The notes beneath the pieces were generated by a model. It searched no databases and was not told the origin of the DNA. It worked only from the letters and a program-made list of their open reading frames with translations. A DNA stretch of 64,000 nucleotides, from the NCBI GenBank assembly GCA_022823505.1, contig JAJEIA010000090.1, positions 24,036-88,035 on the forward strand, given 5' to 3'. Each line of letters starts with the position of its first letter. Position 1 is the stretch's first letter. This document shows positions 1-24,081 of the stretch, piece after piece. This stretch comes from Dehalococcoidia bacterium. Its GTDB lineage: Bacteria > Chloroflexota > Dehalococcoidia > Lucifugimonadales > UBA3495. The translations under genes were made by a program, and so were the position numbers.

Positions 1-488
1 GGAGTCTGCACCGCCCCGCCCATGACGAGCACCCGCTTCGCCAGCGGCAAAGCCGTTGGGTGGTCCCGGTGCAGCCGGGCCAAGTTGGTCAGGGGACCGA
101 GAGCGATGACCGTGACCCGGCCCGGGTTCGCCCGAAGGGTTTGGGCCAGGAACCGCACGGCGCCGGTATCGGATGTACGCGAGGTCGGTGGGGGCAGCGG
201 GTGCGTCAGACCCTCGGCAGAATGGACGTGGCGGGCGTAGGCAAAGCGGCCACGCATCGGCCGGGCCGCTCCCCTGGCGACCGGAATGTCCGTGCGGCTG
301 ACGTTCTCCAACAGGGCAAGGGCGTTTCTGGTCGCCGGCCCTATCGGGACATTGCCGGCCGTGGTGGTCAGACCGACGACGTCCAGTTGAGGACACGACA
401 GGGCCATCAGCAGCGCGATGGCGTCATCGACCCCGGGATCGGTGTCGATCACCACCGCGTCCGGAGCCGCAACGTACGATGCCGTCAT
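1..488 (-). CDS. Inosine/uridine-preferring nucleoside hydrolase family protein (3' end outside window)
   Basis: Reading the minus strand from an ATG at 488 gives an open frame of about 162 codons that runs off the window edge, so it is absent from the ORF track. Residues ~13-20 read IDTDPGVDDA, the Ca2+-binding Asp signature of IUNH-family N-ribohydrolases, followed by a typical N-terminal half with ALGPLTNLA. Members cleave the N-glycosidic bond of ribonucleosides to a base and ribose. It begins 4 nt after the stop of the upstream SDR gene, so it is probably the tail of the hopanoid operon. A role in removing a base from a nucleoside intermediate is inference; purine or pyrimidine salvage is equally possible. 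Substrate preference cannot be read from the visible half. Confidence 0.88.
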   Translation of the reverse strand, partial: MTASYVAAPDAVVIDTDPGVDDAIALLMALSCPQLDVVGLTTTAGNVPIGPATRNALALLENVSRTDIPVARGAARPMRGRFAYARHVHSAEGLTHPLPPPTSRTSDTGAVRFLAQTLRANPGRVTVIALGPLTNLARLHRDHPTALPLAKRVLVMGGAVQT

Positions 489-492
489 GGGT

Positions 493-1527
493 TCAGGCCG
501 GTTCCAGGAGCACCGAATGGCAATACGCGCGTATGGCACGCGCCGACGAATACTTGAACCGGAAGTCCGCCGTCTGCTTGAACTTGGCTGAGCTGACGAT
601 CAGGGGGTGTTTCGATAACTGCCTTCCCGTGGAGTTGAGCGAAAGCGAGGAACCGGCGTGTCTGGGCAGTCCTGAAGACCGGCACCAGTCAAGGATGTTC
701 AGTGAATCCACCACTCCGTCACCGGCCACGTTGAACACTCCGTGCAGTCTCTTGCGTATCACCTGTTCTATCGCTCGCGCCAGGTCATGGTGATGCACGA
801 ATTGCAGCGGAAAGCTGCGCTTCCGGTTGGCGGTAATCGCAGGCAGCAGCAGTTCGTCAGTCGCGGGACTGGCGTGATCGGGGCTGACTGACATCGCGGC
901 GCGCAGAATCACCACCTTCATTTCTTCATCGGCGTCGCCGCCCGTCAACGCCCCGCCGTCCTCCGCTTGAGGCAAGGCTGGCTCAGCTTCGGCGAGATAG
1001 CGGTGTTGGCGGTTGGGATTGGTGGCGGTTCGCTCCGTGACGGGGATCGGGTTGTCGGCATTTGCGCCGTAGACGCGAACGTCCGACAGGTAGATGAACT
1101 GACGCACCCCCGCGATGCGGGCCGCGCGGAGCCAAAGCTGCGCGTCGGCGCAGAACTGTTCGGGGTTGGGTCCATCGTAATAGCTCCCGACGTGGATGAG
1201 GGAATCGACCCCTTCCAGCTGCAACACGTCCGGAATGTCGGCAATGGTGAGCTCGTGCCCCTCCAGGAACATGTCCCAGGCTTTCTGCTGCATGAAATCC
1301 GGAATGTCGGACATGGTGAGGATTCCGCCCACCCGGTTTTGCGCCAGGCGGTAGGTGGAGATCCGTTCCACGGGCCAGCGCAACGGGCGCTCGGCGATGG
1401 CGACCAGCCAGCAGTCCGGCCGCTCCCTCTCCAGGTACAGCAGCATCTGCGCGCCGAAACTGGAAGCGGCGCCGACCACGCCTATGGCGTGGGAGAAGTC
1501 GCGCGGGGTTCCAGTGTCGGTGCTCAT
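493..1527 (-). CDS. NAD(P)-dependent epimerase/dehydratase-like SDR
   Basis: This is a 344-residue protein with an N-terminal Rossmann segment (AIGVVGAASSFGAQ) and the extended-SDR landmarks HVGSYYDGPN, YLSDVRVYG and a downstream substrate-binding half. The glycine motif is a loose version of the usual GxxGxxG. Extended SDRs oxidise, epimerise or dehydrate nucleotide sugars and related alcohols with NAD(P). It starts at ATG 1527, 49 nt after the class II aldolase, and ends 4 nt before the nucleoside hydrolase. Its place in the hopanoid operon suggests it acts on a sugar-like side chain, but this is inferred only from position. It is distinct from hpnA, the second SDR of the same operon. Confidence 0.8.
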   Translation of the reverse strand: MSTDTGTPRDFSHAIGVVGAASSFGAQMLLYLERERPDCWLVAIAERPLRWPVERISTYRLAQNRVGGILTMSDIPDFMQQKAWDMFLEGHELTIADIPDVLQLEGVDSLIHVGSYYDGPNPEQFCADAQLWLRAARIAGVRQFIYLSDVRVYGANADNPIPVTERTATNPNRQHRYLAEAEPALPQAEDGGALTGGDADEEMKVVILRAAMSVSPDHASPATDELLLPAITANRKRSFPLQFVHHHDLARAIEQVIRKRLHGVFNVAGDGVVDSLNILDWCRSSGLPRHAGSSLSLNSTGRQLSKHPLIVSSAKFKQTADFRFKYSSARAIRAYCHSVLLEPA

Positions 1528-1576
1528 TTCTCAGCGTGTTCCGGTCGCCGGTGCGGCGGCATTGTCCAGCCTGGGA

Positions 1577-2245
1577 TCATGACTGGCGGCGGTCCTGGAA
1601 CATCTGCATCTCCGTTGCGACGGCGTCTTCCGGCAGGGAAGACGCGGCTCGCGGGCCGAAGTTGCGGGCCAGCACAAAAATCTGCGCCAGACGCTCCACC
1701 AGGTCACAGACTTCCAGCGCCTCCCAGATGTCCGGCCCGACGCCGACCGCGCCGTGGTTGCGCAGCAGCGCAGCGTTCCGGTCACCCAACGCGGCGTGAG
1801 CCTGCTCGGCCAGTTCCTGCGTTCCCGGGAAGGCGTACTTGCTGACCTTGATCGGCCCCCCGATGGTCATCAGCATTTCGTCGATCAGAGGCGGGATGTC
1901 GCGGCCGATGACCGCAGCCACCGACGCGTATATGGAGTGGGTATGCGCCACGGCTTTGACATCCGGTCGCTGGCGGTAAATCTCCAGGTGCAGGCGGGTT
2001 TCCGACGACGGCGGCATCGGAGCCGGGGACACCGGTTCGCCGTCGAGGTTCACCACCACCAGTTCGTCCGGCTTAAGCCGGTAGTAGGGATGATGCGTGG
2101 GCGTCACCAGCAGCAGGCTGTCATCCCCGGCGTCGGTCAAACGCAGGCTGGTGTTGCCCGAATACGCTCCCACGAGGCCGCGCCGGTACATTTCGCGGGT
2201 GGCCTCGGTGAGGTCGTTGCGCTGTTCAGACCATTGGTCGGCCAC
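1577..2245 (-). CDS. Class II aldolase/adducin family protein
   Basis: The ORF track starts at 2305, but a GTG at 2245 preceded by GGAGGAAA is the likely start, giving 222 residues and a 20-nt overlap with the end of hpnE. The protein has the family hallmarks: SGNTSLR near the N-terminus, HTHS (two zinc ligands) in the middle and LRNHGAV (third His) towards the C-terminus. Class II aldolases cleave sugar phosphates such as fuculose-1-P or ribulose-1-P using Zn2+; some members are dehydratases. The overlap with hpnE implies translational coupling inside the hopanoid operon. Which sugar it acts on is unknown, and it is not a recognised hopanoid enzyme. Confidence 0.85.
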   Translation of the reverse strand: MADQWSEQRNDLTEATREMYRRGLVGAYSGNTSLRLTDAGDDSLLLVTPTHHPYYRLKPDELVVVNLDGEPVSPAPMPPSSETRLHLEIYRQRPDVKAVAHTHSIYASVAAVIGRDIPPLIDEMLMTIGGPIKVSKYAFPGTQELAEQAHAALGDRNAALLRNHGAVGVGPDIWEALEVCDLVERLAQIFVLARNFGPRAASSLPEDAVATEMQMFQDRRQS

Positions 2246-3641
2246 TCTTTTCCTCCGCGGTACCTGGGGCGGCGCCGAAACGCGACATGACCGCTGCCGC
2301 AGCATTATATCCGCTGATGATGGCCCCCTCCATAGTCGAGGGCCATCCGGTGTCGGTCCATTCCCCGGCCAGGAAGAGATTGGGGGACGCGGTGACCGGG
2401 CCGGGTCGCATTCGCTGGGCTCCGGGCGTGCAGCGGAAAGTGGCGTTGCGCTGTTTCACCACAATCGACCGTACGAGCCGTGCCTGCCGCGCCCGGGGGA
2501 ACGCCGCTCGCATCTCTTCCGCGATGCGGTCCGCCAGTTCCGCACGGGGGAGGTCGATGTGATCCCAGGCCGCGCTGATCGAAACGGCAAGCAATTGGCC
2601 GTCGCGTCTCGGGTCACTCCCCCTGATCCGCGAGGTGTTGAAGACCCACTGCAGCGGGTTGTCCAGGAAGTAGCAGAAATCTCCGTCCATTACGGGGCGA
2701 TCATACTCGAGATGCACGTTGACGATGGGCGAGGCCCGCAGCCCGGTCAACGAATTGAACGGCGCCTGTTCCGCCAGGCGGTCCGGGATCAGGCCGGGCA
2801 GGACCCAGAATGGCGCCGCGCTGACGTATACGTCCGCCGACCATTCCCGGCCGCCGCCCGCCACGACGCGTTGCACCCGGCCGTCGGCGCTGGCCTCGAC
2901 TGCATGGGCCGGGCAGCCCAGGAGCGTGCGCACGCCCAGGTCATGCAGGTAGGCCTCGCAGGGCGCGCCGATCGCCTGCCCCAATGGCACAAGGGGGTGC
3001 CCGATGTTGATCTCCCGCCGCCCCTGCAACAGGCCATCCTGGGTGATCATCAGTCCCATCGCCGCGCTGACGTCGCGGATATTGTCGTTGAGCGTCCCCT
3101 CGATGATCACGTTCCAAAGGTTGTAGATGCACCGTTCCGACTGGCCATGGGCTCGCAGCCAGTCGTAGAACGAGGTTGTTTCCATCTCAGGCGCGGACCG
3201 GTTGGCCCGCATCGCGGCAATCACTCCTCGAACCGCGCGCAGCTTGTCGCCCAGGCTGAGGTGGCGGTAGGTGATGAAAGCCGCCAGCAGGTGGGCCGGG
3301 GCGGGACCGCCCAGCCCATACAGTTTGCCCCCGCGCCCAGCGCGGTCATAGACGTCGACGTTCAGCCTGGGCTGCACATGCCACAGGTCGCTGACCCCAA
3401 TGCGCTCCAAGAACTCCATAAGGTTGCGACACGCACCCACGATCACGTGTTGGCCGTTGTCCAGCTCGACACCGCTCTCGCGGTCCGCGAACGAAAAGGC
3501 CCGGCCTCCCAGAGAGGTTCGAGCCTCCAGCAACGTCACCCGCCAACCGGACTCGGCAAGTCGGCCGGCCGCAGCGATACCCGCCAGACCGCCGCCGATG
3601 ACCAGCGCCGACGGTTCGCTATCGCTGCCGTTGCCAGTCAC
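2226..3641 (-). CDS. hpnE: Hydroxysqualene dehydroxylase HpnE (phytoene desaturase-like FAD enzyme)
   Basis: This 471-residue flavoprotein has an N-terminal dinucleotide-binding motif (GGGLAGIAAAGRLAESG, ending in LLEA) and a C-terminal FAD motif (LFLAGEWTDTGWPSTMEGA). In the HpnCDE route it reductively converts hydroxysqualene to squalene. The start is GTG 3641, overlapping the hpnD stop by 4 nt (GTGA). It sits directly after hpnC and hpnD, the canonical order, which separates it from carotenoid desaturases with the same fold. Its 3' end overlaps the class II aldolase gene. Confidence 0.92.
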   Translation of the reverse strand: MTGNGSDSEPSALVIGGGLAGIAAAGRLAESGWRVTLLEARTSLGGRAFSFADRESGVELDNGQHVIVGACRNLMEFLERIGVSDLWHVQPRLNVDVYDRAGRGGKLYGLGGPAPAHLLAAFITYRHLSLGDKLRAVRGVIAAMRANRSAPEMETTSFYDWLRAHGQSERCIYNLWNVIIEGTLNDNIRDVSAAMGLMITQDGLLQGRREINIGHPLVPLGQAIGAPCEAYLHDLGVRTLLGCPAHAVEASADGRVQRVVAGGGREWSADVYVSAAPFWVLPGLIPDRLAEQAPFNSLTGLRASPIVNVHLEYDRPVMDGDFCYFLDNPLQWVFNTSRIRGSDPRRDGQLLAVSISAAWDHIDLPRAELADRIAEEMRAAFPRARQARLVRSIVVKQRNATFRCTPGAQRMRPGPVTASPNLFLAGEWTDTGWPSTMEGAIISGYNAAAAVMSRFGAAPGTAEEKSGRPMV

Positions 3642-4534
3642 TTCATCAGGGGGCCGGTGAGCCAGGCCCTGGCCATCAGCCCCAGTTTCGCGCCTTTGCT
3701 CAATCCGATGCGCTGGGAAAACACGTCGTACCCGGCGGCTTCGATCTTGTTCAGCACACCGCCGTAGATGAGGCCCAACGCGGCGGGGCAGGCGCGGGAC
3801 CGCGGTGAGAGTTGGGGCAGCAGACGCCGGCCGCTGGCGAAGTACTGCCGGGCGCGATCTATCTGGAACTGCATCAGATTGGCGAACCCCTCGGTCACCG
3901 CGCGATTTCGCAGATCATCTTCGGTGACTCCGAACCGGTCCAACTCGTCCTGGGGCAGATAGACCCTGCCGAACTCCCAGTCCTCGAGCACGTCCCGGCA
4001 GATGTTGGTCAGCTGCATCGCCAATCCCAGGTCGATGGCGCCCTGCCGCGCCTGTTCGCCGCCGCGATATCCGAATATATGGATACAAATGAGACCCACC
4101 ACCGAGGCCACCTGGTAACAGTAGGCTCGCAATTCTTCGAAATTGGCGTACCTGGTCTTCACCAGGTCGGATTCAACGCCGCTCAGGACTTCCTGGAAGT
4201 ACTCCTCGGGTATGTTGTAGGTTGCCGCCACGTCCGACAGGCCGATGAACAGCGGCTCATCGGCGTTCCCGGCGTAGGATTGGGACAACTTGCCGCGCAG
4301 ATACTCGATCCGCTGCAGCTTCTCCCCGTGTGTCCCCTCGGCGTCTACCGAATCGTCGCAGTACCGGCAGAACGTGTAGGCGACGTAGATGGCCCGCCGC
4401 TGCCGGGCCGGCAACGTCAGGAAAGCGAAATAAAAGTTGCGCGCTTCGCGCCGGGTTACCTGGCGGCACTCCTCGTAGGCTGCCGCCAATGCTTCGGGTG
4501 ACGGTGAGGGCGCTGTCGGCGACGGGGTCGTCAT
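3638..4534 (-). CDS. hpnD: Presqualene diphosphate synthase HpnD
   Basis: This is a 298-residue trans-isoprenyl transferase of the squalene/phytoene synthase family. The two Asp-rich Mg2+/diphosphate motifs are present: DDSVD around residue 60 and NICRDVLED around residue 185, followed by GRVYLPQDEL. HpnD condenses two farnesyl diphosphates to presqualene diphosphate. It follows hpnC by 10 nt and overlaps hpnE by 4 nt, so the three squalene-forming genes are one translational unit. Phytoene synthase is the homologous alternative, but the paired hpnC and the downstream hpnE and cyclase settle the assignment. Confidence 0.92.
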   Translation of the reverse strand: MTTPSPTAPSPSPEALAAAYEECRQVTRREARNFYFAFLTLPARQRRAIYVAYTFCRYCDDSVDAEGTHGEKLQRIEYLRGKLSQSYAGNADEPLFIGLSDVAATYNIPEEYFQEVLSGVESDLVKTRYANFEELRAYCYQVASVVGLICIHIFGYRGGEQARQGAIDLGLAMQLTNICRDVLEDWEFGRVYLPQDELDRFGVTEDDLRNRAVTEGFANLMQFQIDRARQYFASGRRLLPQLSPRSRACPAALGLIYGGVLNKIEAAGYDVFSQRIGLSKGAKLGLMARAWLTGPLMK

Positions 4535-4544
4535 CTGGTCCGCC

Positions 4545-5570
4545 TCAGGGTTTGGGCAATCCGTACCCGGTTCCCATCTTGTTGCCCAGCCAGGCGGACG
4601 CCAACAGCCACGCTTTGCGCTGCTTTGATAACGCGGGGCGATGGCTCAGGACGTCGTGGTCCTGCCGGCGTATGGCGTGGAGAACGGCCACCCCGCCTCG
4701 CGTGAACAGCGCCACCGGCAACCGGGCCCGCCGATCCAGTGAGGCAACCAGCGGCGCACCCTGTCGGAACATGCGCATGGCGATCTCGCATTCGTACCGC
4801 AGCAGCGCGCGGAATGCTTCGGTGGGCGAGCGGTCCGCGATGTCGCGTTCGCTGACGCCGAAGCGTTGCATGTCGGATTGCGGCAGGTAGATCCGGCCGC
4901 GGTCCCGGTAGTCGCGGCTCACGTCCTGCCAGAAATTGGTGAGTTGAAGGGCGGTGCACGTGTTGTCGGCCAGGAGTTGCCGCCGGCGGTCCGAGTACCC
5001 GAACAGATAGAGGTACAGGTGCCCGACCGGGTTGGCGGAAAAGCGGCAGTATTCCAGCACGTCGTCCAGGGTTTCGAAACGGCCCGATCCCTGGTCCATC
5101 AAATTGGCCCGTATCAGGCGGTGGAAGGGTTCGGCCGGGATGTCGAACGAGCCGACGGTGTGCTGGACCGCAATCGATATCGGGTGCGTGGGCTGCCCGG
5201 AGTAAATCGCGTCCAGTTCCGCTTCCCACCACGCCAGCCGGCTGCGCCGGTGCGTGGTGATCGCCGCGTCGAGCTGGCCGTCTGCCACGGCGGCTTCGGT
5301 CAGCGCCGGCGGCAGCGATTCGTCGCCCAGGTCATCCACCATCCGGCACCAGGAATAGATGGCGTAGACGTGAGGCAGTTTGTCCCGGGGCGTAATCCAC
5401 CCGCCGACGTTGAAATTCTCATAATGGCTGCGGGCCAGCTTTTCGCAAAACCGGTACGCTTCGTCCAGCGTGACCGGCTCCGCGGATGCCAGCGCGGTCG
5501 CGTCCGCGGTGAGAGAGTTCCTCTCTTCGGTGGCGGTTGGCATGCTGCTGTGCGCCCGGGGCGCGCTCAC
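4545..5570 (-). CDS. hpnC: Hydroxysqualene synthase HpnC
   Basis: This is a 341-residue paralogue of HpnD in the squalene/phytoene synthase family. Motif 1 reads MVDDLGDE and motif 2 LTNFWQDVSRDY, followed by GRIYLPQSDM; Phe-Trp in place of the usual Ile-Cys in motif 2 is typical of HpnC. It hydrolyses presqualene diphosphate to hydroxysqualene, the substrate of HpnE. The likely start is GTG 5570, overlapping the yjbQ-like stop by 4 nt. An ATG at 5543 would shorten it by nine residues. Confidence 0.92.
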   Translation of the reverse strand: MSAPRAHSSMPTATEERNSLTADATALASAEPVTLDEAYRFCEKLARSHYENFNVGGWITPRDKLPHVYAIYSWCRMVDDLGDESLPPALTEAAVADGQLDAAITTHRRSRLAWWEAELDAIYSGQPTHPISIAVQHTVGSFDIPAEPFHRLIRANLMDQGSGRFETLDDVLEYCRFSANPVGHLYLYLFGYSDRRRQLLADNTCTALQLTNFWQDVSRDYRDRGRIYLPQSDMQRFGVSERDIADRSPTEAFRALLRYECEIAMRMFRQGAPLVASLDRRARLPVALFTRGGVAVLHAIRRQDHDVLSHRPALSKQRKAWLLASAWLGNKMGTGYGLPKP

Positions 5571-6010
5571 TCACCCACGATCTGGACCATCACCTCACGA
5601 GGCCTCGGATGGTCCAGTTCGATGAAGAAAATGCTCTGCCACTGGCCGAAGGGCATCTTCCCATCGATGAGCGGGATGGTCTCACTCGACCCAAGCATCA
5701 AGTGCTGGAGGTGCGCGTGACCGTTTGGAGATTCTTCTTCGGTCATATTGACCGTGCGTACCGAGAAATCATTGTGCCGGTATTCCCCGAAACGAGGGCA
5801 CATCTTCTCCAGAAACCGAGTCATGTCTTCGATCAGCAACGGTTCGTTTTCGTTGATGATCACGGCAGCGGTGGTATGGCGCGAGTACACCACAACAAAT
5901 CCGTTGCTGACGCTGGCCCGGCCGACGCATCCCTTCACCCAGTCGGTGATATCGATGAATTCGGGGGCGCCGGTGGTGTCGACTTTCAGGGAAAAATGTT
6001 CAGTTTTCAT
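5567..6010 (-). CDS. YjbQ/UPF0047 family protein
   Basis: This 147-residue protein belongs to the conserved YjbQ (UPF0047) family: SRHTTAAVIINENEP near residue 50 and GSSETIPLIDGKMPFGQWQ in the C-terminal half are its signature, with conserved His and Glu. Some homologues show weak thiamine-phosphate synthase activity, but the physiological role of the family is unsettled. I prefer ATG 6010 over the ORF-track GTG at 6019 because MKTEHFSLKV is the usual beginning. It is wedged between the cyclase and hpnC with a 4-nt overlap, so it is co-expressed with hopanoid synthesis; no functional link is known. Confidence 0.85.
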   Translation of the reverse strand: MKTEHFSLKVDTTGAPEFIDITDWVKGCVGRASVSNGFVVVYSRHTTAAVIINENEPLLIEDMTRFLEKMCPRFGEYRHNDFSVRTVNMTEEESPNGHAHLQHLMLGSSETIPLIDGKMPFGQWQSIFFIELDHPRPREVMVQIVGE

Positions 6011-6048
6011 GAGTTGCACTCGGTAGGGGAGTGTGATGAACGGAACAC

Positions 6049-8151
6049 TTATGTGGGGTGGGTTGAGCTGCGGGCCGCCGGCTCCATTGGCCGGTGGCCG
6101 TTGCCCTGGAAGTTGGCTAGCAGACCTCGCCGTGCCTGGAACGTCCGATAACGGGCTAAGGCTATCAGCGGCCAGGTGTTGCGGTAAAGGTGGTAGTTGA
6201 TCATGAAACCCGCTGATAGCTCAGCGCCCTGGAAACCCCGCTCTCCCGGCTGCGGGATGTGGTCCACCCGCTCGCCTTTCAGGTATCCGGGGAAACCGGT
6301 GCCGGTGAAGTACGGCTCGTCCCAGTTGCCCTCCGCAAGTTGTGATTCCAGCAGGTATGCAACGCCACGATGCGTAGCGCGGTCGTCGCCGTATCCGGCG
6401 GCCACCAGCGCAATGATAGCCCAGGCGGTCTGAGAGGCGGTGCTTGGCCCAACCCCGCGTTGTGTCGAATCTATGTACGACGCACACGATTCGCCCCAAC
6501 CTCCGTCAGGATTCTGGTGGTTGATGAGCCACTGGACCGCGCGGCGGACGTAGGGTTGACGCATGTCCTCGCCGGTTGCCTCCAGCGCCGGCAGGACGGC
6601 TCCCAGGCCGTAGACGTAGTTTACTCCCCAGCGCCCGAACCAACTACCGTCGTCCTCCTGCTCGCTTCGCAGGTAGCGATACGCCTGCTGCAGGAAACTC
6701 TGGTCGGTCTTGTACCCGAGTTTCCCGTACATTTCCAGGATATGGGCCGTTACGTCCGCGCTGGAGGGGTCAAGGACCTCGCCGAAATCGCTGAACGTAA
6801 GCGCCGTCACATAACCGTGATTGTTGTCCTTGTCGAACGAGGCCCACCCGCCGTCCTTGTTCTGCATCCCGCGTACCCAATCCAGGGCTCGAGAGATCGC
6901 GTCGTGACGCAAACGGTCCTCTGCGCCGGGCAGTTTGCCCAGGCGCAAAGCCAGTACCACCTCGGCGGTGTCATCGATGTCCGGATAGCAGTTGTTGTGG
7001 AATTCAAACGCCCACCCGCCCGGTTGCAACTGCGGCGCCTGTACCTGCCAGTCGCCGCCGACCAGTATCTGCTTGTCGACCAGCCACCGGGTGGCGGATT
7101 CGAGCATGGGGTCTGCTGTCGACAAACCGCTTTCGGCCAGCCCCTGAACAACCAGGCACGTGTCCCACACCGGCGAGATGCAGCCCTGGATGGTCCACCG
7201 ATCGCCCTTTTGGATTGCAAAACCGTCAAGACCGGCGAAACCGCGGGACATGGTGGGATGTTCATTGTCGAAGCCGCACACGCTGAGGGCGATGAGGCTG
7301 TACACCCAGGGCGGCTGAATGCCTCCCCAACTTCCGTCATCTTCCTGGTGTTCAAGGATCCAGCGAATGGCTTTGCGTTCCGCGATCCGGCGCAGCGGGT
7401 TCAAGGGAATGCGGCCGTAAATCTTTCCCAGCGCCTGCTCCGCGAGATGCACCAGCTTTGGCAGGTTGAACCCGGGAGGCGATGGCACCGAGTAGTCGGT
7501 ACCCGAACGACCGTCGGGGAACAGCTCGTCGATGGCGTGCTCCGGCGCGATGGCCCGGACCGGGCGGCGCGACAGCACGATGGACAACGGGACGATGCAC
7601 CCTCTTGCCCAACTGGCAAAGCGGTAGATACTCAGGGGCGCCCAATCAGGAAGCAATATCATTTCAATGGGCAGCCGGGGCGTACCGTCCCATTCCCATT
7701 GTCCGAACAATGCCAGCCAGATGCGGGTGAACATCCGGACGCGAGGCACTCCGCCCCGTTGCAGAACGAACTGCCGCGCCCGGCGCATATGGTCCGATTG
7801 CAGGTCTTCTCCGCACAGCTTCAGCGCGAAGTAGCACTCCACAGTGGTGGACAGATCGCCGGGGGCGCCGTAGTAGATCGCCCAGGACCCGTCGTCCAAT
7901 TGCTTGCTGCGGAGGTAATTGACGATGTGCCGTTCCCGCTCCGGGTTGTGGTGGCCAAGGAACCGGGACAGCATCACGTATTCCGCTTCCATGGTGTTGT
8001 TCGATTCCAGTTCACCCCACCAGTAACCGTCCGAGCCCTGGATCCGTCGGAAGTATTCCTGCAGCCGCGCGATCGATGCGTCCAGGGCGTCCGACGACGG
8101 CGTGTCGACGCGTACGCCGGTCCCGTTGCGAGTGATTTCCTGGATAGCCAT
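6049..8151 (-). CDS. shc: Squalene-hopene cyclase
   Basis: This is a 700-residue class II triterpene cyclase. The catalytic acid motif DIDDTA (DxDDTA) lies near residue 395, and several QW repeats are visible (QEDDGSWGG, QNKDGGWASF, QEDDGSWFG, QNPDGGWGES). The C-terminal GTGFPGYL segment is also conserved. It cyclises squalene to hopene/hopanol at the membrane. The first in-frame ATG (MAIQEITRNG) is used. It is downstream of hpnA and upstream of the squalene-forming genes, so a complete farnesyl-to-hopene pathway is encoded in one operon. An oxidosqualene/sterol cyclase is unlikely given the hpn neighbours and the DxDDTA motif. Confidence 0.96.
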   Translation of the reverse strand: MAIQEITRNGTGVRVDTPSSDALDASIARLQEYFRRIQGSDGYWWGELESNNTMEAEYVMLSRFLGHHNPERERHIVNYLRSKQLDDGSWAIYYGAPGDLSTTVECYFALKLCGEDLQSDHMRRARQFVLQRGGVPRVRMFTRIWLALFGQWEWDGTPRLPIEMILLPDWAPLSIYRFASWARGCIVPLSIVLSRRPVRAIAPEHAIDELFPDGRSGTDYSVPSPPGFNLPKLVHLAEQALGKIYGRIPLNPLRRIAERKAIRWILEHQEDDGSWGGIQPPWVYSLIALSVCGFDNEHPTMSRGFAGLDGFAIQKGDRWTIQGCISPVWDTCLVVQGLAESGLSTADPMLESATRWLVDKQILVGGDWQVQAPQLQPGGWAFEFHNNCYPDIDDTAEVVLALRLGKLPGAEDRLRHDAISRALDWVRGMQNKDGGWASFDKDNNHGYVTALTFSDFGEVLDPSSADVTAHILEMYGKLGYKTDQSFLQQAYRYLRSEQEDDGSWFGRWGVNYVYGLGAVLPALEATGEDMRQPYVRRAVQWLINHQNPDGGWGESCASYIDSTQRGVGPSTASQTAWAIIALVAAGYGDDRATHRGVAYLLESQLAEGNWDEPYFTGTGFPGYLKGERVDHIPQPGERGFQGAELSAGFMINYHLYRNTWPLIALARYRTFQARRGLLANFQGNGHRPMEPAARSSTHPT

Positions 8152-8178
8152 GACGCTTACCCTGCAAATCCTGAGGGG

Positions 8179-9183
8179 CTAAATGTAGCCGTGATCTCTA
8201 AACCAACGGATCGCCTTTTCCAGGGCCACTTCAACCGGACTCTGGGGCAGACCCAGTTCGGCTACCGCCTTTTTGCTGCTCACGTACATCGGGTGCCTAG
8301 TGATTTTGATTGCTTCGACGGGAACGCTAGGCGGGCGGCGGAGGAGGGTGCCTTCGATGAATTGGTCGAGGTGTGCGAACCCCAGAATGGCCCAGTGCGG
8401 AATCCGGATGTTGGGCGCGCTCCGCCCGGTGATCTGGGACAACATGTCGAAAATCTCTTTCAGGGTGAGATTGCGGCAACCCAGGATGTAGCGTTCTCCG
8501 GGGATCCCCCGCTCCATCGCCAGGATGTGACCCTCGGCGACGTCCGCCACGTCGATCAGGTTCATACCGGTCGCAATGTAGCCCGGAGCCTTGCCGCGGG
8601 CGAAAAACAGGGGAATCTGCCCGGTGGGCGTCGGCTTCACGTCCCACTCCCCCACCGGCGCGCAGGGGTTGACTACCACCACCTCCATCTCTTCGTCGTT
8701 GGCCGCCAAAGCGATTTGTTCGGTGGCATACTTGGACTGCTTGTAGTAACCGATGAGCAGAGCCGGACGAGGCGGCATATCTTCGGTGCCAAGGTGCACC
8801 GGGCGGTTCCCGGGACTGTTATCCGGTATGCCTATGGTCGCCACCGAGCTGGTGAAAACCACGCGGCGCACTCCCGCCTTTCGCGCCGCGTCGAGCAAAT
8901 TCACGGTGCCGACCACGTTCGAGCGATACATTTCACGCGGACGGGGCGACCAGAAGGAGTAGATGGCCGCACAGTGATAGACGGTCTCGCAGCCCTCGGC
9001 GGCGCGTCGTACCGAATCGCTGTCCAGGAGATCGCCCGTGACCTGGGCTACCCCGGTTTCGCGAATGGCCAGATCGTTGCCGGATGGCCGGACCAGCGCG
9101 CGAACGTCCTGGCCTCGCGCCCATAGCGCGCGGGCGAGGTTCCCGCCCACGAAGCCGGTGGCGCCCGTTACCAGCGTGGTCAT
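8179..9183 (-). CDS. hpnA: Hopanoid-associated sugar epimerase HpnA
   Basis: The ORF track extends to 9459, but the protein proper starts at ATG 9183 (MTTLVTGATGFVGGNLARAL), giving 334 residues and a 4-nt ATGA overlap with hpnG. It is an extended SDR: TGATGFVGGNLA binds NAD(P), VFTSSVATIG supplies the Ser region and YYKQSKYATEQ carries the YxxxK catalytic pair. HpnA proteins recur in hopanoid clusters, but the reaction is not firmly established; a role in side-chain sugar processing is assumed. The 92-residue upstream extension is arginine-rich and antisense-like, and is rejected. Confidence 0.9.
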   Translation of the reverse strand: MTTLVTGATGFVGGNLARALWARGQDVRALVRPSGNDLAIRETGVAQVTGDLLDSDSVRRAAEGCETVYHCAAIYSFWSPRPREMYRSNVVGTVNLLDAARKAGVRRVVFTSSVATIGIPDNSPGNRPVHLGTEDMPPRPALLIGYYKQSKYATEQIALAANDEEMEVVVVNPCAPVGEWDVKPTPTGQIPLFFARGKAPGYIATGMNLIDVADVAEGHILAMERGIPGERYILGCRNLTLKEIFDMLSQITGRSAPNIRIPHWAILGFAHLDQFIEGTLLRRPPSVPVEAIKITRHPMYVSSKKAVAELGLPQSPVEVALEKAIRWFRDHGYI

Positions 9184-9884
9184 GGCGCTGACGGGGCCGC
9201 TCGGGCGGAGGGTGCCGGCGTCACTTCCAACAGACCGGACACGCAATGTGCCAGGCGGTTCCGGGCGATTTGCGCCTTGCGGGACAGTCGTACCAGGCTG
9301 GGAATGCTGCCGGGATGTGCTGCCAACCCGCGCAGCACGTCGATGATTCCGTCGCCCGAAGCGCCCAGGTAAGCCGGAATCTCGTCCCCTGCGGCATCCA
9401 GCACCGCTCGAACCGACGCGAAGGGTATGCCGTAGCCGGCCGCGGCGCGGGCGGCCCAATAGTCTTCCATGTTGACCGACAACGCGCCGGCGGTCGTGTG
9501 CAGGGCGGACTTCACGTCAGCGCCGGCTACGGATCCGACCGTGACGGATGCACCGCCGGCCAGGCGGGTTTGACTGCGGGCGGCCCAGGCTCTCACTCTG
9601 GCGGTCAGTCCCGGATCGGCCGGGACAGGCTGGGGACAGTCAGTGGAGTGGAACTCGTCGGCCACGTGCAGATCGCCGGTACGGAGCCCCGGGTCCGCGC
9701 CGCCGCAAAAACCGATGGCCAAGATCCCCGCAGGCGATTCGGCCGCCACTGCCGCGATGCCCGCCTCGGCGCGCCGACGGCCCACACCGATGATGTGCAG
9801 GGTCGCGCTCCTTCCGTGCGGGTCGCCGATTGCCCGGCGCACGCCAGCTAGTTCCGTGGCCATGGGTGCAACTACGGCAAGCAT
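9180..9884 (-). CDS. hpnG: Adenosylhopane nucleosidase/phosphorylase HpnG
   Basis: This protein of about 234 residues belongs to the purine nucleoside phosphorylase/MTAN fold. AIGFCGGADPGLRTGDLHVADEF and SVNMEDYWAARAA are the ribose- and base-binding landmarks. HpnG removes adenine from adenosylhopane made by HpnH to give a ribosylhopane (phosphate). The ORF track starts at GTG 9911; ATG 9884 (MLAVVAPMATELAGV) fits the family N-terminus better, and neither has a strong ribosome-binding site. Its 3' end overlaps hpnA by 4 nt and hpnH precedes it, the canonical HpnH-HpnG pairing. Confidence 0.88.
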   Translation of the reverse strand: MLAVVAPMATELAGVRRAIGDPHGRSATLHIIGVGRRRAEAGIAAVAAESPAGILAIGFCGGADPGLRTGDLHVADEFHSTDCPQPVPADPGLTARVRAWAARSQTRLAGGASVTVGSVAGADVKSALHTTAGALSVNMEDYWAARAAAGYGIPFASVRAVLDAAGDEIPAYLGASGDGIIDVLRGLAAHPGSIPSLVRLSRKAQIARNRLAHCVSGLLEVTPAPSARAAPSAP

Positions 9885-9989
9885 AGGAATAACAATAGCG
9901 ACCAACCTCACCCAGCCGGTCAGCGTTCGTTTTATCGTCCCGATTGTCCGCCACGTGACTGGTCGAGCGGATTCGGTGCCAGGAACCGT

Positions 9990-11066
9990 CTATCCGACGC
10001 TGATGCCTCCTTTATGCGCCGCACCGGACTTGATGAATGTGACCCATTCCCTGGGTTTGCCAATTGCGTTGAATATCGTCGCGGATTCAAAACCGCAGTG
10101 CATCATGCAGTTGTTGCAGCGAGGGTCCCGGCCCACGCCGTATTTTTCTTCCCACAAATGGGGTTCGTAGAGTTCGTCGATGTCAGTGGCGTGTTCGTCC
10201 GCCAGTGGATAACAGGGCTTGCGCCAGCCCATCACCGTGTAGGTCGGATTGGACCACGCGGTGCACTGGTATTCCCGTTCTCCGCGGAGGAAATTCAGGT
10301 AGAGCGGGTTGTTATAAAACCGCATTCCCTCCATCCGGGTGGGGTCCAGCAGGTCCCGGAACACGTTCCTGGATTCCTGGCGCGTGAGGAACAGATCCTG
10401 GTCGGGAGCGTCTTCGAAGTCGTAACCCGGCGATATCATCGACCCTTCAACACCGAGGTCGCCGACGTAGCGGAACATCTCGCGCAGGTCCTCCACGTCG
10501 CTGTTGCGGAACACGGTCGTGTTCGTGCACACGCGATAGCCGCGCTCCACCGCCATTTGAATCCCGTCCACGGCGCGCTTGAACACGCCGGCCCGCGCCA
10601 CCGATTCGTCGTGCTTCTCCTCCATGCCGTCCATGTGGATGACCCAGCAGAAGTACTTGGACGGCGGTATCTTGTCCAGCATGCGCGGCAGGAGCAACGC
10701 GTTGGTGCAGCAGTAGACGAAGTACTTTTCAGCCACCAGGGTGTTGATGATCTCGTCGATTTTCGGGTGGATCGTCGGCTCGCCGCCGGCGATGGACACA
10801 ATGGGCGCACCCGAGCGGTGCACGGCGTCCAACGCCTCTTCCACCGGCATCATCTGGTCCAGTACGCCGCGGTATTCGCGTATACGCCCGCAACCGATGC
10901 ACGCCAGGTTGCACATCTCCAGCGGTTCCAGCATGGTGACCAGCGGGAAACGCTTGCGGCCGCGCAGCCGGTTTTTGAGGATGTACCAACCCATTCTCAC
11001 GCCAAGCTCAATCGGACGCTTGGCCGGCTTGACGGTGGTGGGTTCGTCTTTATGTGTCCGTACCAT
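9990..11066 (-). CDS. hpnH: Adenosyl-hopene transferase HpnH (radical SAM)
   Basis: This is a 358-residue radical SAM enzyme with the cluster motif CNLACIGC (Cys 52, 56 and 59) after the basic N-terminus LKNRLRGRKRFP typical of HpnH. Cysteines near the C-terminus (RCNNCMMHCGFE) match the family's C-terminal extension. It transfers a 5'-deoxyadenosyl group to hopene, the first step of bacteriohopanepolyol side-chain formation. It lies 33 nt after the polyprenyl synthase and 105 nt before hpnG. Its presence means the organism probably makes extended C35 hopanoids, not only diploptene. Confidence 0.94.
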   Translation of the reverse strand: MVRTHKDEPTTVKPAKRPIELGVRMGWYILKNRLRGRKRFPLVTMLEPLEMCNLACIGCGRIREYRGVLDQMMPVEEALDAVHRSGAPIVSIAGGEPTIHPKIDEIINTLVAEKYFVYCCTNALLLPRMLDKIPPSKYFCWVIHMDGMEEKHDESVARAGVFKRAVDGIQMAVERGYRVCTNTTVFRNSDVEDLREMFRYVGDLGVEGSMISPGYDFEDAPDQDLFLTRQESRNVFRDLLDPTRMEGMRFYNNPLYLNFLRGEREYQCTAWSNPTYTVMGWRKPCYPLADEHATDIDELYEPHLWEEKYGVGRDPRCNNCMMHCGFESATIFNAIGKPREWVTFIKSGAAHKGGISVG

Positions 11067-11099
11067 GCTCAGTATCCCCGCAACCTTTCGCCAGGGTCG

Positions 11100-12209
11100 T
11101 CAGAATAGGCGGTAAGCCATGAAATCAATCAGGTTTTGCGCATCCTCGGTGGCCCACGGCGGCAACTCCAGCATCGCCAGCGCGGCCCGGCCTTCCTCGG
11201 CGGTCGCCTCGGTGAGTTCGTCGGTCTGGTGATCGGCTCCCAGGTCATCCAGTATGTCCATGACGCGGTCCACGTCGGCTTCGTCGAGTGCCTCCTGGGA
11301 GTACAACCGCCGCAACTCTTCGCGATTGGCGCCGTCCGCGTGCTGGAAAGCGTACACGATGGGGTAGCTCTTCTTGCGCTGGACGATGTCACTATCCGTG
11401 GACTTTCCGGTGATGGCTTCGTCGCCCCAGATCCCCAGGTAATCGTCCCTGATCTGGAACAGGCGCCCGATGGCCCGGCCGAAACGGGCCACGCCCTCAA
11501 TGGTTTCGGCATCGTCCGTGGCGATGGTTGCCCCGATCACCATGCTGCTGCGGATCAGCGCTCCCGTCTTCAGGGCTATCATGTCCAGGTATTCTTCGGA
11601 CGCGATGACCTCGCGTTTTTCGAACTCCAGGTCACGGCACTGCCCTTCGATCATCTCCAGGTAGCTTTGGGTCAGGAGTTGAGAGACGCGTATTGTGGTG
11701 CCGGGCGGCACGCCGCCGTCCACGCTCAGAGTGCTCAGGTCGCCCAGCGACTGCATCGCATCACCGGCCACCAGCGCCTGTTCCGTGCCCCAGACCGCCC
11801 ACACCGTCGGTTGGTGCCGGCGTTCCATCCCCTGGTCCTGGATGTCGTCGTGGACCAGCGAAAAGTTGTGTATGAGCTCCAAAGCGGCGGCGGCCGGCGC
11901 CGCATGTTCGGGATCGCCCTGGAGTGCGTCACAGGCGAACATGCACAGCGTGGGCCGTAGCGCTTTCCCCTGGGAGGCGGGGGTGGCTGCCGGCGTTCCG
12001 GTCCGGTCCGACCATCCCAGGTGGTACCGCAACAGCGTGTTGACCGCGTGATCTTCCAGGGGCGGTACTGCTGCTGCCAGAGCATGTTCCAGGTACTCGC
12101 GGTACCGGTCAAACATGGCGGGCAGATCCGGAGCGTCTCTGCGCGCCCCGTCCTTATCCTGCCGACCCAACCGGCGAGCCTCCGCGGAGGCTGTTGGTGT
12201 TGTACCCAT
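11100..12209 (-). CDS. Polyprenyl diphosphate synthase (farnesyl/geranylgeranyl type)
   Basis: This 369-residue all-trans prenyltransferase has KALRP near residue 82, the first Asp-rich motif DDIQD at 121-125 (short DDxxD type) and the second motif RDDYLG near residue 255. It builds the C15-C20 allylic diphosphate that feeds HpnD. It is the first gene of the hopanoid operon, which suggests a dedicated farnesyl diphosphate supply, though chain length cannot be fixed from the sequence alone. The start at 12209 has a weak ribosome-binding site. The first ~31 residues are low-complexity, and MFDRYREYLEHAL (start 12116) is a plausible alternative. Confidence 0.9.
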   Translation of the reverse strand: MGTTPTASAEARRLGRQDKDGARRDAPDLPAMFDRYREYLEHALAAAVPPLEDHAVNTLLRYHLGWSDRTGTPAATPASQGKALRPTLCMFACDALQGDPEHAAPAAAALELIHNFSLVHDDIQDQGMERRHQPTVWAVWGTEQALVAGDAMQSLGDLSTLSVDGGVPPGTTIRVSQLLTQSYLEMIEGQCRDLEFEKREVIASEEYLDMIALKTGALIRSSMVIGATIATDDAETIEGVARFGRAIGRLFQIRDDYLGIWGDEAITGKSTDSDIVQRKKSYPIVYAFQHADGANREELRRLYSQEALDEADVDRVMDILDDLGADHQTDELTEATAEEGRAALAMLELPPWATEDAQNLIDFMAYRLF

Positions 12210-12559: not shown

Positions 12560-12841
12560 TCATTTCAGTCCGCCGGCGACCGCCGGGACAATGCTGATTT
12601 CGTCTCCGGATTTGATAGACGTCCGCAGCCCCTGGTCGAACCGGATATCTTCGCCATTCACGTAAATGTTCACGAAGTACCGCAGTTCGCCTTCTTCGTC
12701 CAGCAACCGCTCCTTGAAGCCGGGATAGTCATTCTCCAGCCGGTCGATCATTTGCGAAAGGTCGGCCACGTCCAGTTCAACTTTGTCCGCGCCGCCGGTC
12801 ATGCGTCGCAGCGGAGTGGGAATGCGTACCGTTACGCCCAT
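12560..12841 (-). CDS. MoaD/ThiS-like sulfur carrier protein
   Basis: The track ORF begins at 12928, but ATG 12841 (MGVTVRIPTPLRRMTGG) has a GGAGGA ribosome-binding site about 9 nt upstream, giving 93 residues. The beta-grasp sequence ends VPAVAGGLK: the di-glycine used for thiocarboxylation is followed by two extra residues. MoaD/ThiS-fold carriers deliver sulfide to cofactor or amino-acid pathways. It is the third gene after threonine synthase and the NIL protein, and no molybdopterin genes are near, which favours a role in amino-acid sulfur chemistry. The masked C-terminus would need trimming by a protease before activation, as in the CysO and QbsE systems. Confidence 0.85.
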   Translation of the reverse strand: MGVTVRIPTPLRRMTGGADKVELDVADLSQMIDRLENDYPGFKERLLDEEGELRYFVNIYVNGEDIRFDQGLRTSIKSGDEISIVPAVAGGLK

Positions 12842-12936
12842 TGGAATAGTTCCTCCTGCAATTTTGGGATTCCGTTTCGCGTCCGCCGCTGTGGCATGTT
12901 CGATATGACACCTGGGGTTGGCAGCCACCGGCGCGG

Positions 12937-13185
12937 TCAGCCTTCAATCACGTCTCCCGCGATGGGGTCAACCCTGACGCCCGTGTTGCCGACCCAGTCG
13001 AGGCCACGCTGGATCTCCTCCTCGGAACCCTCGAGTTCCAGCACCACCCAACCGACATCCGACCGGACATCGGCGCGCCTGATGTTGGTGACCACGTCGA
13101 AGTCGTGTCCCAGCCGGTAGATGATCGGCTCCCGCACCATCTCGGCCGAGAAGGTGAACCGCACGCGCTGTTTGGCCATGACCAT
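12937..13185 (-). CDS. NIL domain protein
   Basis: This 82-residue protein matches the ferredoxin-like NIL domain (RVRFTFSAEMVREPIIYRLGHDFDVVTNIRRADV), usually found at the C-terminus of methionine ABC transporter ATPases or next to Fe-S proteins and in homocysteine synthesis loci. Its ATG abuts the TAG of threonine synthase with no gap, indicating strict co-translation. The domain is thought to be a small-molecule or regulatory module. Stand-alone copies next to MoaD-like carriers suggest a sulfur amino-acid function, which is inference. Confidence 0.85.
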   Translation of the reverse strand: MVMAKQRVRFTFSAEMVREPIIYRLGHDFDVVTNIRRADVRSDVGWVVLELEGSEEEIQRGLDWVGNTGVRVDPIAGDVIEG

Positions 13186-14475
13186 CTACACCCGGGCCGC
13201 CGTCCGGTTTTCCAGGGCTTCTTCGAACGACCCCATCATGGGCTTGATTTGGAGGGGATTGACCACCTCTTCCACAGCTTCCTGGGTTTTCAGGCCGTTG
13301 CCGGTGATGTAGGCTACGGTGAGTTCGTCGGCGCCGATGGCGCCGGTATCGGCCAGGTATTTGAGCGTGGAAACGGTCACTCCGCCGGCGGTCTCGGTGA
13401 AGATGCCCTCGGTTTCCGCCAGCAGTTTGATGCCTTCCACCACCTGGGATTCCGGCACCGCGTAGCCGCTTCCGCCCGACTCCCGGATGACGCGCAGGCT
13501 GTAGATTCCGTCCGCCGGATTACCAATGGCCAACGACTTGGCGATGCTGTCGGGGCGCACGGGACGGATCTGATTCTGCTGGTTCTCCCACGCGGTCACG
13601 ATGGGGCAGCAACCGGCGGCCTGCGCCATGTGCATGCGCGTGGTGATGGCGGGATGATGCACCGTGTTCTGGTCGGCGCCGAAGGGTTGCGGGTCCACGC
13701 CGTCCAACAGTCCCAGGCACGCCAACTCGTTGAAACCCTTCCAGATCTTGGTGAACATCGCCCCGGAGGCCGACGGCACCACCACGTGGTCCGGCACTCT
13801 CCAGCCCAACTGCTCGGCAACTTCGTACCCGAGGGTCTTGCTGCCCTCGGCGTAGTAGGGCCGCATGTTGATGTTGACGAACGCCCAGGGGTAGTTGTCG
13901 CTAACCTCGCTGCACAGGCGGTTGACTTCGTCGTAGGTGCCCTCGACCGCCACGAGCGTCGGATTGTAGACGGCGGCGCCGATGACCTTGCCGCGTTCGA
14001 GGTCCGCCGGGATGAAGACCACCGCGTCGATCCCGGCCCGGGCGGCGTGAGCGGCCACGCTGCAGGCCAGGTTGCCAGTGCTGGCGCACGCCAGCGTCTC
14101 GTAACCGAATTCAACCGCCTTGGTCGCCGCCACCGACACGACGCGGTCCTTGAACGAGAAGGACGGGTTGACGCTGTCGTTCTTGATGTACAGGTTGTTC
14201 AGCCCCAGCTTTTTGCCCAGGTTCCTGGCCTTCAGCAACGGCGTGTAACCCGACATGATGTCGACGGGGTCGTCCGCCGAGGCCGGCAGCAGGTCCTGGT
14301 AGCGCCAGATACTCAACGGCCCGTCGGCGATGCGCTGGTGCGTGACCACCTCCGAGATGGTCACGTAGTCATAGATGACCTCCAGAGGGCCAAAACAGAA
14401 ATCGCAAACGTTCAGGGGCTCGCCCGGGTATTCCCGGCCGCATTCCCGGCATTTCAAACCTTTGACAAACGCCAC
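13186..14475 (-). CDS. thrC: Threonine synthase (PLP-dependent)
   Basis: This is a 429-residue fold-type II PLP enzyme. An N-terminal CxxC...CxxC zinc-ribbon-like segment (LKCRECGREYPG and NVCDFCFGP) precedes the PLP lysine motif NPSFSFKDR, and ASTGNLACS binds the phosphate. Threonine synthase converts O-phosphohomoserine to threonine. The start is GTG 14475 with GGAGGT about 9 nt upstream. It heads a three-gene operon with NIL and MoaD-like genes, so a paralogue that makes homocysteine from phosphohomoserine and a protein thiocarboxylate is a real alternative. Confidence 0.88.
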   Translation of the reverse strand: MAFVKGLKCRECGREYPGEPLNVCDFCFGPLEVIYDYVTISEVVTHQRIADGPLSIWRYQDLLPASADDPVDIMSGYTPLLKARNLGKKLGLNNLYIKNDSVNPSFSFKDRVVSVAATKAVEFGYETLACASTGNLACSVAAHAARAGIDAVVFIPADLERGKVIGAAVYNPTLVAVEGTYDEVNRLCSEVSDNYPWAFVNINMRPYYAEGSKTLGYEVAEQLGWRVPDHVVVPSASGAMFTKIWKGFNELACLGLLDGVDPQPFGADQNTVHHPAITTRMHMAQAAGCCPIVTAWENQQNQIRPVRPDSIAKSLAIGNPADGIYSLRVIRESGGSGYAVPESQVVEGIKLLAETEGIFTETAGGVTVSTLKYLADTGAIGADELTVAYITGNGLKTQEAVEEVVNPLQIKPMMGSFEEALENRTAARV

Positions 14476-22707: not shown

Positions 22708-24081
22708 TTGAATACCGGCGTTTCGGACCTGACGACGTACCTGCGGGAGCAGTATCACTACGCCTGGCTCGTGGTCGGAATGGGCACCATGCTCCGGGTC
22801 ACCGCCAATTTCGTCAGCCAGGCTTTCGCCGTCATCCTCGTCGTCCTCCAGACCGACTTCGCCTGGGGCGTCACCGCCATCGTGCTGGCCCAGGTCTTCC
22901 GGAGCCTCGCCAGCGCTCTTTTGTCCCCGGCCTCCGGATGGGTCGGCGACCGCTATGGAGCGCGCAAGTCCCTGTTTGTTGCCGCCGCCCTCTATGTGGT
23001 CGGGATGCTGCTCCTCAGCACCGTGGAACAGATCTGGCAGCTGTACCTCTACTACAGCTTTGTATTGGGCCTGGCCCAGGCACTCTTCACGGTCAACATC
23101 CCCACCACCGTCGCCGCCTGGTTCAAGCGGAAACTGGGCGTTGCCGTCGGCATCCAGCAGTCCATCGGAGGCATGGGAGCATCGGTCACCGCCCCGGCCC
23201 TGGCGCTGCTGGTGGCCCTGACGGGCTGGCAGGTCGGTTTCTGGATCATCGCCGGCGTGGGCGGAGTAATCCTGTTCTCCCTGTTATTCTTCTTCCACAG
23301 CGAGCCCGCCGATCGCGGCCTGAAACCGCTGGGAGCCACCGACGACGAGCCGGCGCCGGCGCCGGTCAATGCCGCAACGGCGAAGTTGCGCAGCAAGGTC
23401 TTCCTGCAGCACGCCCGCCGGACCCGCGCCTTCTGGAACCTTCCCTTCATCCACTTCCTCGGCTGCATGGGCCACGCCATCGTCATCTGGCACGTGGTGT
23501 TCTTCGCAACCGAGCAGGGATTGTCCCTCACCGCGGCGGCCTGGACCGTTACCATCTACACCATGGCCAGCGTCAGCAGCCGCCTGTTCATACCGATCCT
23601 GGCCGACCGGTGGGGCGCCAAGGTAACGATGATTCTGCCCTATTTCCTGCAGGGCGTCACGGTCATAATGCTCTTCTGGGCCCAGAGCGTGTGGGAGTTC
23701 TATCTCTTCGCGGTCCTCTTCGGCATCGGGTTTGGCGGGGAGATGTCCGCCTTCCTCATCGCCAACCGCCAGTACTATGGCATGGGACCGGTGCGGTCGA
23801 TCTTCGGATTCCAGCATCTCGGGTCCGGCTTCGGCATGGCGCTCGGAGGACTCGTCGGCGGCGTGATCTATGACTTCAGGAATGCCGAAGTACCCGTGCG
23901 GTATCTTGGTTTCATCGACGTCGGCGGGGGCTCCTACGACCTCGCCTGGACCATCTCCATCGCCGCCAGTCTCGCCGGAGTGATCTTCATCCTGCTGTTG
24001 GAATCGTCCTCCCGCGTCCTCATCCCCGACTGGGAAGAGTCCTTGCCGGCCGAGGGCCAGACCTCGCCCGCGGCTACGTGA
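22708..24081 (+). CDS. MFS transporter
   Basis: This 457-residue protein has about twelve membrane helices. The start is TTG 22708 with GGAGAG about 9 nt upstream. A motif-A-like loop is seen in the first half (GWVGDRYGARKSLFV) and again in the second (ADRWGAKVTMIL), the usual duplication of the 6+6 fold. The N-terminal arrangement and the AVGIQQSIGGMGASVTAP helix resemble monocarboxylate/oxalate-formate type MFS carriers. It is convergent with a second MFS gene, 13 nt apart. Substrate unknown. Confidence 0.92.
   Translation: MNTGVSDLTTYLREQYHYAWLVVGMGTMLRVTANFVSQAFAVILVVLQTDFAWGVTAIVLAQVFRSLASALLSPASGWVGDRYGARKSLFVAAALYVVGMLLLSTVEQIWQLYLYYSFVLGLAQALFTVNIPTTVAAWFKRKLGVAVGIQQSIGGMGASVTAPALALLVALTGWQVGFWIIAGVGGVILFSLLFFFHSEPADRGLKPLGATDDEPAPAPVNAATAKLRSKVFLQHARRTRAFWNLPFIHFLGCMGHAIVIWHVVFFATEQGLSLTAAAWTVTIYTMASVSSRLFIPILADRWGAKVTMILPYFLQGVTVIMLFWAQSVWEFYLFAVLFGIGFGGEMSAFLIANRQYYGMGPVRSIFGFQHLGSGFGMALGGLVGGVIYDFRNAEVPVRYLGFIDVGGGSYDLAWTISIAASLAGVIFILLLESSSRVLIPDWEESLPAEGQTSPAAT

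Follow-up and report, generated by a model that had tools for sequence, protein, structure and literature searches.

Function of a Carbohydrate-Gene Tail in an hpn Operon

In a genome that, among named relatives, is closest to Dehalococcoidia/SAR202 MAGs (phylum Chloroflexota), the hopanoid genes are followed on the same strand by genes for a class II aldolase, an extended SDR and a nucleoside hydrolase. This raises the question of whether these carbohydrate-type genes are a functional part of the hpn operon and, in particular, whether they remodel the hopanoid side chain. The window, i.e., the whole stretch of 64,000 nucleotides that was analyzed, covers positions 24036–88035 of contig C144 in a genome of 3.7 Mb. 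In the papers found on hopanoids together with SAR202/Dehalococcoidia or with an aldolase, a carbohydrate tail of the hpn operon is not described.

Organization of the hpn Operon

The operon is located on the minus strand with the gene order idsA-hpnH-hpnG-hpnA-shc-yjbQ-hpnC-hpnD-hpnE-aldolase-SDR-nucleoside hydrolase (Table 1). All twelve same-strand genes listed by the first-pass annotation were found and belong to the expected families. That list ended in the nucleoside hydrolase, which is present, but is cut at the window edge and followed by a phosphodiesterase gene, whose start lies approximately 15 nt past the hydrolase gene and is preceded by GGAGG. Past the phosphodiesterase, the 3′ end of the operon is marked by convergent genes encoding GDYXXLXY and DUF2157 proteins. 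Overlaps of 4 nt were found for YjbQ/HpnC, HpnD/HpnE and HpnG/HpnA (ATGA), and one of 20 nt for HpnE and the aldolase, if the latter starts at the GTG at 2245. The overlaps of 4–20 nt that had been described are therefore present for several pairs, but not for SDR/hydrolase and aldolase/SDR, which are separated by gaps of 4 and 49 nt, respectively. A promoter and terminator scan gave no signal above shuffles. The idsA-like gene opens the operon in most related loci. Upstream of the operon, genes for a threonine synthase, a NIL-domain protein and a MoaD/SAMP1-like protein are located on the same strand (window positions 12560–14475).

Table 1. Genes of the hpn operon and its tail in operon order (positions in the window unless locus L002 is given).
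Gene	Product	Position	Strand	Evidence
idsA-like	Polyprenyl diphosphate synthase, first gene of the operon	11100..12209	-	PF00348, E 4e-60
hpnH	Adenosyl-hopene transferase (radical SAM)	9990..11066	-	TIGR03470, 430 bits (cut-off 225)
hpnG	Adenosylhopane phosphorylase	9180..9911	-	PF01048; TIGR03468, 98 bits (cut-off 187)
hpnA	Hopanoid-associated epimerase	8179..9183	-	TIGR03466, 393 bits (cut-off 368)
shc	Squalene-hopene cyclase (SHC)	6049..8151	-	TIGR01507, 761 bits
yjbQ	UPF0047 protein	5567..6019	-	TIGR00149, 119 bits; 27 loci
hpnC	Squalene synthase	4545..5570	-	TIGR03464, 297 bits
hpnD	Presqualene diphosphate synthase	3638..4534	-	TIGR03465, 267 bits (cut-off 279)
hpnE	Hydroxysqualene dehydroxylase	2226..3641	-	TIGR03467, 414 bits
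Tail gene 1	Class II aldolase	1577..2245	-	PF00596
Tail gene 2	Extended SDR	493..1527	-	Pfam epimerase match marginal, E 1.4e-4
Tail gene 3	Nucleoside hydrolase, cut by the window edge	1..488; whole gene L002:9529-10488	-	PF01156, E 6e-71
Tail gene 4	Type I phosphodiesterase/nucleotide pyrophosphatase, beyond the window	about L002:8075-9513		PF01663, E 2e-36

The set of genes for hopene formation is present, with SHC, HpnC and HpnE scoring above their NCBIfam cut-offs and HpnD at 267 of 279 bits. The first step toward the C35 side chain is represented by HpnH, which lies clearly above its cut-off. HpnG matches the HpnG family best and its position is conserved, yet its score remains below the family cut-off. 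In the genus, it also evolves faster than any other protein of the operon, with a dN/dS of 0.27–0.38. YjbQ, a UPF0047 protein of uncertain native function, is found repeatedly in the hpn operons of this class, in most cases with shc on one side and hpnC on the other (L068-L070, L075, and others). A second SHC, 54% identical to the operon copy and with no hpn neighbors detected, was identified in a single-contig member of the genus (L139, G411:C1:1591234-1593183).

Conservation of the Tail Within the Genus

The same gene order was found in eight of the eight genus genomes examined, as far as their contigs reach. The comparison included the genomes G371, G395, G399, G403, G407, G411, and G415 as well as the loci L033-L036, some of which derive from the same genomes. 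Common to the genus members is the order from hpnH to hpnE given above, followed by aldolase, SDR, hydrolase and phosphodiesterase. This bears out the view of the tail as a true part of the hpn operon, and chance neighbors are ruled out, since both gene order and linkage are conserved. Pairwise dN/dS values in the genus are 0.05–0.10 for the aldolase, 0.13–0.23 for the SDR, 0.14–0.30 for the hydrolase and 0.10–0.15 for the phosphodiesterase. Purifying selection thus acts on all tail genes, and strongly on the aldolase, whose values are near those of HpnH (0.03–0.05).

Predicted Functions of the Tail Proteins

The best PDB match of the aldolase, by sequence as well as by fold, is DrdA (6btd/6btg), followed by FucA (model pLDDT 92), and in both respects the lead of DrdA over the fuculose aldolases is small. 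None of the NCBIfam equivalog cut-offs was reached by the protein. The catalytic glutamate and the three metal-binding histidines (Glu82, His101, His103, and His164) do not vary among 20 loci and align with those of DrdA. DrdA, in which Glu76 serves in proton transfer, cleaves 5-deoxyribulose 1-phosphate into DHAP and acetaldehyde (PMC6079011). From these matches, the tail enzyme is most likely a DHAP-forming aldolase of the DrdA/Ald2 type, which would act on a 5-substituted ribulose 1-phosphate. In AraD (L-ribulose-5-phosphate 4-epimerase), an aspartate replaces the aldolase glutamate, and an assignment as AraD epimerase is ruled out by the invariant Glu82. An MtnB dehydratase is disfavored by its lower score, but Glu123, beside the invariant Asp122, takes the place of FucA Tyr113 in the alignment, which leaves some room for this assignment.

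None of the eight genus genomes encodes a PF00596 (class II aldolase) protein other than the tail aldolase, and hence none has a further protein that could be MtnB. MtnA is encoded elsewhere in all eight of them, and MtnP is found near MtnA in both genomes examined for it. A DrdA-type cluster with MtnK-/MtnP-like and MtnA-like genes is absent from the window genome, where MtnA and MtnP are located on another contig. As the sole PF00596 protein in genomes with MtnA and MtnP, the aldolase would be the one enzyme left to close a DHAP shunt, if the substrate fits.

The window SDR is too divergent in sequence for a match to any NCBIfam family. In the genus, GxxGxxG is replaced by a GAASSFG-type loop, SS by SD, and YxxxK by YLAEA, HLCSA or FILDA, while the predicted structure retains the extended-SDR fold. 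In outgroup families, the Ser-Tyr-Lys set and the motif are intact. The genus SDR, having lost the catalytic Ser-Tyr-Lys, is probably a pseudoenzyme. An activity on sugars, as proposed in the first-pass annotation, can therefore not be assumed and is not borne out for the genus.

The nucleoside hydrolases share the DTDPGxDD calcium motif and the C-terminal aspartate in all 10 sequences compared, and the window protein retains DTDPGVDD as well as the ribose-side residues. In inosine-uridine nucleoside hydrolases, an acid histidine (His241 type) is located before the C-terminal aspartate. This position is occupied by tyrosine, cysteine or alanine in the hydrolases studied here, with tyrosine in the window protein.

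A Longer Tail in Other Families

The arrangement typical of the order has, downstream of hpnE, genes for a D-2-hydroxyacid dehydrogenase, an FGGY kinase, the aldolase, a protein of about 120 amino acids, the SDR and sometimes the hydrolase. The tail dehydrogenase, the FGGY kinase and the small protein are missing from the window genus. In other genera of the window's family, the aldolase is gone from the spot after hpnE, and the SDR still adjoins hpnE. No FGGY kinase was found by profile search in 13 genomes of this family, including two single-contig genus members. The same profile finds kinases in 56 of 294 genomes, which shows that the search works; the idea of an overlooked kinase gene at another site was therefore rejected for these 13 genomes.

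Judged by gene content, the window tail is what is left of a conserved carbohydrate-phosphate module after reduction, with the phosphodiesterase added. The longer tail would be the ancestral form, as suggested by its spread rather than by a rooted reconstruction. The locus would illustrate how a lipid operon can take up a carbohydrate module that is later trimmed to an aldolase and an SDR with a degenerate catalytic site.

Several other arrangements were observed. In three class-level genomes (G011, G028, and G035), kinase and aldolase follow SHC, with no hpnCDE between. In family f90 the set is split, with hpnH-hpnG-shc at one locus and idsA-dehydrogenase-kinase-aldolase-small protein-SDR-hydrolase at another (L096, L132, and L133). 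A NUDIX hydrolase gene lies between hpnE and the dehydrogenase gene in L057 and L094, and a UbiE-like methyltransferase gene follows the SDR in family f9.

Distribution of the Tail Genes and Hopanoid Capacity

The SDR is present in 66 of the 73 SHC-positive genomes vs. 7 of the 74 SHC-negative ones (order sample, n = 147), counts which are uncorrected for shared ancestry and in which SHC-positive genomes may be larger. In 38 of the 66 double-positive genomes, its best match lies 4.7–11.8 kb from SHC. The aldolase occurs in 26 of 80 SHC-positive vs. 31 of 214 SHC-negative genomes (class sample, n = 294; Fisher p = 8.5e-4, likewise uncorrected for shared ancestry and subject to the same possible size bias). 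In this sample, 12 genomes from 10 families have the aldolase at most 20 kb from SHC.

Furthermore, all 31 SHC-negative carriers of the aldolase also lack HpnH. The dehydrogenase-kinase-aldolase set, whole or in part, stands free among unrelated genes in the families f29, f54, f58, and f26. In f125, a family of another class, the module is found with an HpnA-like SDR, away from hpnH. In G028 (95% complete), SHC adjoins kinase and aldolase, and HpnH is absent. In the decaying hpn operons L114-L116, in which SHC, HpnH or HpnA is absent or fragmented, the aldolase or the kinase is intact. L115 contains fragments of hpnA and L116 of SHC and HpnH, with idsA and hpnG intact, so that the loss of hopanoid synthesis is seen here while under way. 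In the unrooted aldolase tree, a single clade unites the free copies of f23, f29, f54, and f58, next to hpn-linked copies of f22 and f45, so that a single escape of the aldolase from the hpn operon is possible for this clade.

The survey of the trio in related genomes, as suggested in the first-pass annotation, therefore gave a divided result: the SDR tracks SHC and the aldolase is SHC-linked in 10 families, but the latter also occurs in genomes without SHC and HpnH. Occurrence in relatives without hpn genes had been named in the first-pass annotation as refuting a hopanoid role, and for the aldolase it is observed: with these orthologues in 31 class genomes, and with aldolases intact in decaying operons, a role of the aldolase in hopanoid synthesis alone is not supported. 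The tail is conserved, yet it probably does not encode a new lipid side-chain pathway, as it is also found in relatives without hopanoid synthesis. For the proposed alternative route of side-chain remodeling or salvage, the conserved tail and the SDR tracking SHC speak in favor, whereas the aldolase in hopanoid-less genomes and the lost SDR residues speak against it.

Possible Roles of the Tail

We tentatively favor the explanation that the aldolase recycles or disposes of SAM-derived 5-deoxypentose phosphates via DHAP while riding in the hpn operon. Its substrate would be a 5-substituted ribulose 1-phosphate, and its products would be DHAP and an aldehyde. In the genus, the isomerase MtnA and a phosphorylase, either MtnP or HpnG, would supply this substrate instead of a kinase, and the source nucleosides could be 5′-deoxyadenosine from radical SAM enzymes such as HpnH, or MTA. 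Hydrolase and phosphodiesterase may supply nucleosides to this route, and the genus SDR may now bind or stabilize without catalysis. That the genes lie in the hpn operon would be due to a common adenosyl/ribosyl chemistry and to co-expression, with no new lipid formed. The deep module that is syntenic with hpn, and the dehydrogenase-kinase-aldolase set that also stands alone in hopanoid-negative genomes, are consistent with this disposal. Against it, MtnA and MtnP are encoded outside the operon, the kinase of the ancestral tail resembles LsrK/XylB and not MtnK, and related family members retain MtnA but lack a window-type aldolase.

Alternatively, the module could degrade an unrelated environmental ketose through its kinase and then its aldolase and have been fused to hpn once or a few times, its synteny being neutral. 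The kinase is closest to LsrK, xylulokinase and fuculokinase, and the module stands free in several families, in f125 among sugar-type genes. However, strong selection on the aldolase persists after the loss of the kinase, linkage is retained across 10 families in different operon arrangements, and the SDR is nearly absent where SHC is absent, so that such a passenger is possible but unlikely. The last observation, together with the SDR that still adjoins hpnE in family members without the aldolase and its intact catalytic motif outside the window family, would also fit a hopanoid relation of the SDR alone, being HpnA-like in the order and a regulatory or scaffold pseudoenzyme in the window family, with aldolase, hydrolase and phosphodiesterase serving independent salvage. 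We consider this somewhat less likely still, and in outgroups that have the aldolase and the small protein, the SDR lies downstream of them, which suggests one unit.

A truncation of the side chain appears improbable. Here, phosphorolysis of adenosylhopane by HpnG would give a hopanyl ribose 1-phosphate, which would be isomerized and then cut by the aldolase between C3′ and C4′. One product would be DHAP, and the other, a C32 hopanyl acetaldehyde, would be reduced to a C32 hopanol. The linkage of the aldolase to SHC, the distribution of the SDR and the operon shared with hpnH and hpnG agree with this; what becomes of ribosylhopane after HpnG has yet to be settled in hopanoid biosynthesis, and hpnA awaits characterization (PMC12583986). 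However, the module occurs in 31 genomes without SHC and HpnH and is linked to SHC in the HpnH-less genome G028, and many HpnH-positive relatives lack the aldolase. In addition, the genus tail has no obvious reductase, because the catalytic residues of the SDR are lost. It is very unlikely that the operon shortens the side chain enzymatically, with C32 hopanoids as a biological product and the ribosyl carbons recycled as DHAP. Independently of this, the hpn tail gives named, testable candidates for the open ribosylhopane and HpnA steps, above all the SHC-tracking SDR, in a clade that is largely uncultured.

Comparison With Known Systems

Like the canonical hpn cluster, the window contains shc, hpnC, hpnD, hpnE, hpnH, hpnG, and hpnA, but it adds idsA and yjbQ inside the operon as well as the carbohydrate-gene tail. 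With the DrdK-DrdI-DrdA/DHAP shunt, it shares the aldolase glutamate and histidine set, the best match in sequence and fold (6btd/6btg) and the presence of MtnP and MtnA in the genome; however, isomerase and phosphorylase are unlinked in the window genome, and the ancestral kinase is of the FGGY type and was lost in the family. The small tail protein of the outgroups shows weak matches to CGDB/DUF6379, the beta subunit of C-glycoside deglycosidase (Pfam, PDB), but it matches PF25653 better, no alpha subunit was recognized in the hpn loci, and the window genus has lost this beta-like protein. Finally, FucA and its fuculokinase are resembled in the fold and metal site of the aldolase and in the pairing of a ketose kinase with an aldolase in the outgroups, whereas the window locus carries no fucose genes and has Glu123 at the position of FucA Tyr113.
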